From NCBI GenBank assembly GCA_003605035.1, contig QZKJ01000103.1, positions 1-64,000 on the forward strand: a stretch of 64,000 bases of DNA, read 5' to 3'. The notes beneath the pieces were generated by a model. It ran no database searches and was not told the origin of the DNA. It saw only the letters and a program-made list of their open reading frames with translations. A program made the translations under genes and the position numbers. The stretch is from Desulfurivibrio sp. GTDB taxonomy: Bacteria; Desulfobacterota; Desulfobulbia; Desulfobulbales; SURF-16. Positions 23,137-38,358 of this stretch are shown in pieces; the stretch's first letter is position 1, and each line of letters begins with the position of its first letter.

Positions 23137-23209
23137 GGCGGCAACATGTTAATTATTATCTTTATCAGACCTGCCGTTTGTTTGCCGGGGTAAAAGGAAA
23201 AGGATAATA

Positions 23210-23365
23210 ATGAAATCCGTTTTGTATGCCATCATTGCCATGGCGGCCGCCATCTTCTTCATCAGGAAAATAATAAAAAGCAGCAACTGCACCCCTTGAC
23301 TGGTCATTTACGGATCCATCGGGGTGGGTCTTGCTACCTATTATCTGCTCAGCAGATTTCTGTAA
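23210..23365 (+). CDS. Candidate small membrane selenoprotein with CxxU motif
   Basis: A 51-residue frame if UGA 23297-23299 is read as selenocysteine. A good ribosome-binding site (AAGGA repeated, at 23194-23204) precedes ATG 23210. Residues 3-18 and 31-50 are hydrophobic and can form two membrane helices joined by a basic, polar loop that carries C27-T-P-U30. The 66 bases after the UGA remain open in the same frame. A 7- or 8-bp stem with a GGGG-rich apical loop begins 12 nt after the UGA, matching the size and position rules for bacterial SECIS elements. selD in this window also uses UGA, so the decoding machinery is likely present. No family is recognised. If the UGA were a stop, a 29-residue single-helix peptide would result. 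Confidence 0.5.
23312..23333 (+). promoter_or_regulatory. Putative SECIS hairpin of the CxxU mini-ORF
   Basis: Arms GGATCCA and TGGGTCT form 7 pairs (two G-U), and an additional U-G pair leaves the loop CGGG. The loop starts about 20 nt after the UGA, within the range known for bacterial selenoprotein mRNAs. Based on hand folding. Confidence 0.45.
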
Positions 23366-23385
23366 AATGTAGCAGAAATTTCTGC
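23345..23385. repeat. Palindromes and short direct repeat after the CxxU mini-ORF
   Basis: A perfect 14-bp palindrome (23372-23385, GCAGAAATTTCTGC) follows the related AGCAGATTTCTG (23351-23362) and an 11-nt CTGCT-C-AGCAG hairpin (23345-23355). Together they could act as an attenuator or end of the mini-ORF transcript ahead of mtnA; the following T-run (23399-23405) is separated from the hairpin by 13 nt. Confidence 0.4.
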
Positions 23386-37305: not shown

Positions 37306-38358
37306 ATGGCATCTGAAAAAAAAATAAAACTGACAGGCACGGTCAAGGCAGCCGGCTGAGCCGCCAAGCTCAGTCCGGGGGACCTGGACCAGATACTGTG
37401 CGGGCTTGAATTGCCCACCGATCCGAATCTGATAGTGGGCGCCGAAGGCTGTGATGATGCCGGCGTTTACCGGTTGACGGACGACTGCGCCCTGATTCAG
37501 ACGGTGGATTTTTTTACTCCCATTGTCGATGATCCGTATCGCTTCGGCCAGATTGCCGCGGCCAATGCCTTGAGCGATGTCTATGCCATGGGCGGCAGAC
37601 CGCTGCTGGCCATGAATCTTGTCGCCTTTCCCCTGGGCGAAATGGACAAGTCCGTGTTACAGGATATCCTGCGCGGCGGCCTGGAAAAGATCAAGGAGGC
37701 CGGGGCCCTGCTGGTGGGCGGTCACAGCATCGAGGACAAGGAGCTTAAATACGGGCTTTCCGTCACCGGCGTGGTGCACCCGCAGCGGGTCATGCTCAAT
37801 TCCGGGGCACGGCCGGGGGACCAGCTCCTGCTCACCAAACCGCTGGGCACGGGAATTCTCTCCACTGCCATCAAGGGCGGGCTGGCCGGCGAGGAGCTGG
37901 AAAAGCTGATCACCGAGTGCATGATCACCTTGAACCGCATCGGCGGCGACGCCATGGCTGAGGTGGGCGCCCATGGCTGCACCGACATTACCGGTTTCGG
38001 CCTGATCGGTCATCTCTTTGAAATGGCCCATGCCTCCAAGGTCACCATCACCGTTGACACCACAGCAGTACCGCTGCTGCCGCAGACCCATGACTTCGCC
38101 GCCATGGGCATCATCCCGGAAGGGGCCTACAAGAACAGAAATTTTTATACAAAATGGGTGACCAATCATCTGGCCGCGCTTGACCCCCTGGAGATGATTC
38201 TCTATGACCCGCAGACCTCCGGCGGTTTGCTTATCGCCGCTTCTCCCGAGCAGATTCATCATATCGCAGAAAAGATACGAGCCTCCTCTTCCTCCCTGCT
38301 CTGTGCGGTGATCGGCACAGTCAGCGCAGGGGAGCCGGGAAGAATCATTCTTAACTAG
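37306..38358 (+). CDS. selD: Selenide, water dikinase (selenophosphate synthase), selenoprotein
   Basis: Makes selenophosphate, the Se donor for selenocysteine and selenouridine synthesis. 350 residues if UGA 37357-37359 is decoded as Sec18: the start is MASEKKIKLTGTVKAAG-U-AAKL, where the UGA stands at the catalytic Cys17 site of the E. coli enzyme. Later motifs GAEGCDDAGVYRL (with metal-binding Asp), DFFTPIVDDPYRFGQIAAANALSDVYAMGG, GGHSIEDKE and DITGFGLIGHLFEMA are all present. A GTCC-GGG-GGAC hairpin lies 13 nt after the UGA, in SECIS position. Gene finders would start it at 37411 and lose the active site. Confidence 0.93.

Follow-up and report, generated by a model that had tools for sequence, protein, structure and literature searches.

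On comparative evidence, a 51-codon frame at positions 23210-23365 on the forward strand of a Desulfurivibrio sp. contig is almost certainly a real, conserved and vertically maintained gene, whose in-frame UGA is decoded as selenocysteine (Sec). Positions refer throughout to the window, i.e., the whole stretch of 64,000 nucleotides that was analysed. The wider claim, that this 51-residue protein combines Sec decoding with a redox role in the membrane, is one that we favour on balance.

The frame starts with ATG at 23210, crosses the UGA at 23297-23299 and ends with TAA at 23363-23365, as read from the sequence. With TGA translated as Sec, the product is MKSVLYAIIAMAAAIFFIRKIIKSSNCTPULVIYGSIGVGLATYYLLSRFL (51 residues, frame 23210-23365, forward strand), and the coordinates, the translation and the C27-T-P-U30 motif are those that the initial annotation of this DNA had given; the good ribosome-binding site that it described is plausible as well. 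The features are:

23200-23204, forward strand: probable ribosome-binding site AAGGA, 5 nt upstream of the ATG (read from the sequence)
23210-23365, forward strand: putative selenoprotein gene, 51 codons plus TAA, with UGA as codon 30
23213-23278, forward strand: helix 1, residues 2-23, predicted first membrane segment (AlphaFold2)
23288-23299, forward strand: C27-T-P-U30 motif (alignments), with the UGA at 23297-23299
23291-23359, forward strand: helix 2, residues 28-50, predicted second membrane segment, with Y34 and the small residues G35 to G40 (AlphaFold2 and alignment)
23312-23331, forward strand: bacterial SECIS hairpin GGAUCCAU-CGGG-GUGGGUCU, inside the coding sequence
37327-38253, forward strand: selD, selenoprotein-type selenophosphate synthetase with one in-frame TGA (379.6 bits)

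Homologs that stop at the UGA had been named at the outset as a sign of a spurious frame; instead, homologs run through it in the family, the order, the class and a second group described below. With the 51-residue product as the query, 20 of the family’s 22 genomes (counting the own genome) yielded a homolog (E 9.9e-27 to 8.1e-6), each with exactly one TGA. Profile A1, built from 19 members and invariant at C27, P29, U30, Y34, G38 and G40, matched in 203 of the 242 genomes of the order and in 136 of the 148 good ones. A class-level search gave matches in 213 of 257 genomes, largely the same as those of the order search, and among the matches listed in it, 150 of 150 carried exactly one TGA. 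In a set of 28 genomes selected as weak or negative, 16 gave a match under E 1e-3; of these matches, 13 contain a single TGA, two contain no stop and one, with both TGA and TAA, is broken.

In a phylum sample of 395 genomes, profile A2 gave 34 matches at E ≤ 0.05, namely 15 in the own order, one in genome G295 and 18 weaker ones (best 9.2e-5, in G609, with no stop); at the five loci inspected out of these 18, no hairpin gene was seen. A pooled profile, A6, comprising 51 of the 88 Sec members introduced below and two Cys forms, matched 17 of the 395 genomes, i.e., the same 15 plus G295 and G609, and G295 is the sole convincing carrier outside the own order in this sample. A divergent form was found in 31 of the 150 genomes of G295’s order, which belongs to another class of the same phylum (E ≤ 2.3e-4); this second group surfaced only by a direct search around G295 and not with the phylum profiles. 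The best match carries exactly one TGA in each of the 31 genomes, and 30 of these genes were read. Searches of the PDB and of plasmids gave no match. Some genomes hold two or three copies of the family (e.g., G201, G078, G684 and G664), and the two equal-scoring copies in G201, on contigs C41 and C42, could stem from a duplication in the assembly.

Altogether we collected 88 distinct Sec members, 58 from the first group and 30 from the second, with TGA at the CxPU position. These were gathered by a pattern fixing C, [PA], U, [YH] at +4 and [GA] at +8 and +10, so conservation counts over the 88 are biased at those positions; the profile-found alignments and the members that do not fit the pattern provide a less biased basis. 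The latter read CPTU (L110), CPSU (L117), CPQU (L119), GRPU (L122) and CSSU (L123), and C, P and U rank among the most conserved positions in the member alignments. Past the UGA, 20-25 residues follow in 88 of 88 members (21 in 59 of them), under a collecting filter that allowed 16-60. Frameshifts in close relatives had been named as another warning sign, and the frame proved intact in the relatives inspected, with a single exception, L123, whose 5' end is broken.

Purifying selection operates on both sides of the UGA and past the hairpin, and does not extend beyond the stop codon. For 36 close pairs (37 genes), dN/dS was 0.21 up to the UGA, 0.24 in codons +1 to +12 and 0.29 in codons +13 to +20, and for 70 more distant pairs (52 genes) it was 0.22 before the UGA, 0.26 over the SECIS stretch and 0.20 beyond it. 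After the stop codon, read without realignment, we counted 0.66-0.68 substitutions per site at all three codon positions. Lack of conservation after the UGA, which the initial annotation had listed as evidence against the frame, is therefore not what was found: dN/dS stays low past the SECIS up to the stop. Synonymous change was lowest over the SECIS stretch in both pair sets, three short C-x-P codons aside, with a pS minimum of 0.248 vs 0.415 and 0.383 in the close pairs.

The stem-loop with a G-rich apical loop, anticipated 12 nt after the UGA, is present at 23312-23331 as a hairpin of eight pairs (G-U counted) with a 4-nt CGGG loop, starting 12 nt from the UGA. According to the legend of Fig. 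2A in PMC13188914, bacterial SECIS elements have a loop of 3-9 nt with a G within the first two positions, a stem of at least four pairs, a spacing of 16-37 nt and an energy of at most -7.5 kcal/mol; the window hairpin, with a UGA-to-loop spacing of 20 nt and -8.3 kcal/mol, falls within this rule. In the strict form used here, allowing no bulges, the rule holds for 56 of the 88 members (33/58 in the first group, 23/30 in the second) and fails for 32, including L004 and L005, where no hairpin fits it; among the controls it holds for 150 of 3302 TGA triplets found at other places in these loci, and for 187 of 1760 synonymous recodings. The hairpin codons, +4 to +12, are more stable than their synonymous recodings, with a mean folding-energy z of -1.79 in the first group (n=58, 56 below 0) and -1.52 in the second (n=30, 26 below 0), and p ≤ 0.05 in 32/58 and 13/30, respectively. 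Six control stretches gave z from -0.66 to +0.11 in the first group and from -0.84 to +0.20 in the second.

Comparisons in a fixed register gave a mixed picture. With 57 of the 58 first-group members (L003, a near copy of L002, being excluded), pairing was 79.8% vs 72.2% in shuffles, and covariation was 0.218 vs 0.111 ± 0.013, with its maximum at slide 0; with all 30 second-group members, the values were 63.3% vs 57.6% and 0.154 vs 0.090. Two of the five covariation measures were unremarkable against shuffles in both groups: 316 (first) and 273 (second) of 500 shuffles were as high for pairs changed on both sides, and 64 and 130 of 500 for further pair types. Sliding by +1 in the second group gave 15 double-changed cells vs 11 in the true register. 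RNAalifold found practically no consensus in the two SECIS alignments (two pairs at -0.09 kcal/mol in one, none in the other), our guess being that this is because the stems slip by a base between members. A fixed register thus seems too strict, and we therefore relied on the synonymous-recoding controls and the published SECIS rule. Single-sequence folding of the window hairpin was not significant (z -0.21), the 49-nt minimum-energy fold being a different structure, and of ten sequences one scored -3.20, one -1.88 and the rest from -0.88 to -0.17; since the single-sequence fold alone is not significant, the SECIS evidence is comparative.

Homologs with U or C at position 30 were sought, as the initial annotation had suggested: U is widespread, and Cys occupies the Sec position in two genomes of one genus, G022 and G035. 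The G035 form encodes ...DDGCPACLAVNAAIAAALLAIYLLNRFF and the G022 form ...DGCPMCLALNAAIAAALLTLYILNRYLG, the latter gene lying directly upstream of mtnA, like the window gene. In both, YGSIGVG has become NAAIAAA, i.e., the glycines of the SECIS stretch are swapped for alanine, so that helix 2 and its small residues persist. No hairpin satisfying the SECIS rule remains in either Cys form; in Cys form L120, the same stretch folds to -8.7 kcal/mol with a different shape. A search of the 395 phylum genomes with the Cys form returned eight, two of them weak matches and the other six members with UGA from the own order, and no further convincing Cys relatives. SelB is over the cut-off in both Cys-form genomes, so the change from Sec to Cys did not follow a loss of Sec decoding. 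With Cys versions seen in no more than two genomes, both of the same genus, the chemistry may depend on Sec.

The machinery for Sec decoding is present, as expected: the selD gene in the window is itself a selenoprotein gene, and the own genome encodes SelB (362.9 bits) and tRNA-Sec (71.1 bits vs a gathering score of 47). We also followed SelB in a hand-picked sample of 61 genomes, made up of 27 with the gene, two with Cys forms and 32 without a match. SelB was over the cut-off in 27 of 27 genomes with the gene and in 22 of the 32 without a match, the latter meaning that the gene is dispensable or was partly missed. Ten of the 61 genomes have no SelB over the cut-off and all ten are without the hairpin gene; several of these assemblies are incomplete, and in G030 and G219 contig ends carry SelB-like fragments. 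Five of five tested genomes of genus g46 (G100, G138, G141, G175 and G213) have neither SelB over the cut-off nor the gene, and three of the five are at least 92% complete, an apparent lineage-wide loss of Sec decoding.

The annotation’s hydrophobic, helix-like peptides on each side of the UGA correspond to two helices in the AlphaFold2 model (seven sequences), spanning residues 2-23 and 28-50 at modest confidence (mean pLDDT 71.2, pTM 0.35). In this model Sec30 sits in the first turn of helix 2, and a helix dipole at the first turn would favour the selenolate. Across the 88 members, the loop averages 2.66 K/R vs 0.58 at the N-terminus and 0.89 at the C-terminus, exceeding both ends summed in 62 and equalling them in 24. 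By the positive-inside rule, this excess of positive charge predicts a cytoplasmic loop.

These features suggest a working model. The SECIS hairpin just after the UGA would signal recoding with SelB, tRNA-Sec and selD, giving a product with two membrane helices, C-x-P-U in the short loop between them and Sec at the start of helix 2. Cys27 and Sec30 could form a reversible selenenylsulfide, and the helix pair would probably act either as a homodimer or docked on a larger membrane partner via the small-residue face of helix 2. Electrons might then pass between cytosolic thiols or redox carriers and a membrane partner or quinone, in a working mode akin to the TM1-CxxC-TM2 half of DsbB, with Sec and probably in the opposite orientation. 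As judged from motif and topology, from which we infer the function, a thiol/selenol redox role in the membrane is likely, and a DsbB-like electron relay is a tentative version of it, by analogy, that is less likely than not. Speaking against an obligate C-U pair, member L122 has G-R-P-U and no Cys. In this member (genome G068), S-G-R-P-U replaces C-x-P-U, with Sec retained and the partner Cys absent.

Upstream of the window gene lies a divergent comF-like gene (PF00156 and PF18912 over cut-off, TIGR00201 under its cut-off), and mtnA (TIGR00512 over cut-off) begins 60 nt past the stop. A 14-nt palindrome, GCAGAAATTTCTGC, stands at 23372-23385 between the selenoprotein stop and mtnA; it is terminator-like on the minus strand only, with a T-run further downstream on the plus strand. 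Across the 88 loci, mtnA is next downstream in at least 26, typA/bipA next upstream in at least 26 (four of them second-group) and comF divergent upstream in at least 19, these being lower bounds because the open-frame script misses neighbours (e.g., mtnA after L110, L112 and L117); BipA domains were confirmed for the L036 copy only. The synteny is common to both groups, which argues for old vertical descent, and mtnA, typA/bipA and comF look like housekeeping genes in an inherited order rather than a pathway. In three of three loci of one second-group genus (L149, L165 and L166), the stop of a rubredoxin gene lies 0-1 nt upstream of the gene start (PF00301 E 2.3e-17 at L149), likely a translationally coupled pair. 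Rubredoxin is the only redox neighbour recognised and, outside that genus, no fixed operon partner was seen among the loci inspected. The initial annotation’s membrane selenoprotein thus stands, while its redox-active oxidoreductase partner is still a conjecture, with no fixed operon partner besides rubredoxin. More speculatively, the family may represent the DsbB principle reduced to a single CxPU hairpin of ~51 residues: near-core, nearly obligate for selenium, and coupling the redox state of cytosolic thiols or rubredoxin to the membrane in sulfate reducers and related bacteria. In this full form the picture is doubtful.

The alternatives depart from the preferred reading at different points. 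Were the UGA a stop, the gene would encode a 29-residue peptide and the downstream conservation would reflect an RNA element. The conservation of YGSIGVG does look partly RNA-driven, being lost in the Cys forms and accompanied by lowered synonymous change, but the codon-type selection continuing past the hairpin to the stop, the narrow range of post-UGA lengths in all 88 members, the Cys homologs that read straight through and the absence of the gene from all ten genomes of the 61 that have no SelB over the cut-off render this reading highly improbable.

Other alternatives accept the selenoprotein and differ on its role. The CxPU hairpin could bind or move a soft metal, or sulfane/selenide, in the manner of MerT and MerF, i.e., handle metal(loid)s or reduced chalcogens; MerF carries CCxTP at a membrane-helix edge. 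Among catalogued selenoproteins there is also a MerT-like type with C/SxxU (PF02411; Table 1 of PMC13188914). Yet PF02411 is absent from the 20 Pfam families matched by 53 members at E ≤ 0.1, no mer-type gene was recognised by eye among the listed neighbours, and near-core presence in the order (136/148 good genomes) would be odd for metal resistance; we consider this role quite unlikely. Somewhat less unlikely, though still improbable, is an accessory role as a small subunit of a large respiratory complex in the membrane, with CxPU as a structural element or redox sensor and not a carrier. Small oxidase and reductase subunits resemble the protein in size and hairpin form, and there are weak, isolated matches to CydS (E 0.002) and CoxD_Bacillus (E 0.00066). 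These matches, however, come from one and two of 53 members and we read them as a likeness common to membrane helices in general; genes for a respiratory complex were not recognised alongside, and C, P and U belong to the best-conserved positions. A thiol/selenol redox hairpin therefore remains our preferred reading.

The initial annotation did not recognise the family, and the window protein indeed lies under the cut-offs of all Pfam and NCBIfam models; the best E among the other members scanned was 4.6e-4, with model cut-offs not shown. We know of no other two-helix membrane-hairpin selenoprotein, and among the matches listed in a search of literature titles and abstract beginnings, none concerned such a family. 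In Table 1 of a 2026 catalogue of 119 selenoprotein families (PMC13188914), compared by name, motif and Pfam/NCBIfam model rather than by the sequences behind the accessions, and with some entries listed without a motif, no entry is recognisable as the hairpin family. None of the nine new families named in the text of the deep-Sep paper is described there as such a protein. As the paper states, the deep-Sep screen retains a candidate only if it has a known Sec homolog, or if two or more of its ten best hits are Cys homologs; screens relying on Cys homologs would lose families of this sort, whose Cys forms here come from two genomes. The present family adds to the selenoproteome a member that is near-core in one order (136/148 good genomes) and common to an order of another class (31/150), and at ~51 residues the protein is small enough for chemical synthesis.

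Among catalogued selenoproteins, the MerT-like one (PF02411, C/SxxU; PMC13188914 Table 1) is likewise a membrane protein with a CxxU-type motif, and differs in that the hairpin protein has no PF02411 match (53 members, E ≤ 0.1). KCU-star/DUF466, the CC/Se motif family NF041239, the SelW-like family and the hypothetical DG, DW and DF families share Sec via UGA plus SECIS, and some of them CxxU, but in the members scanned against NCBIfam none of their models was matched. As far as PMC13188914 describes them, DG carries GUxG and DW GxU, not CxPU, and DF is listed without a Sec motif; for DF, in contrast to the hairpin family, the deep-Sep paper reports no TGA homologs from other bacteria. The closest likeness in form is to DsbB (PF02600), whose TM1-CxxC-TM2 half likewise consists of two helices, with a CxxC-type pair where helix 2 begins. 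Residues 1-45 of Cys form L124 align with positions 5-49 of PF02600 (E 0.083, 13.7 bits, below the cut-off of 22.1), and one of 37 members matches NF002552 (DsbB) at E 4.6e-4, with the model cut-off not shown. DsbB itself is a four-helix protein with two Cys pairs in the periplasm and a site for quinone. The hairpin protein has 51 residues vs the 148 positions of the profile, Sec in place of the second Cys, a predicted cytoplasmic loop and no second Cys pair. With its two predicted helices, one pair and a PF02600 score below the gathering cut-off, it is accordingly not filed as DsbB.
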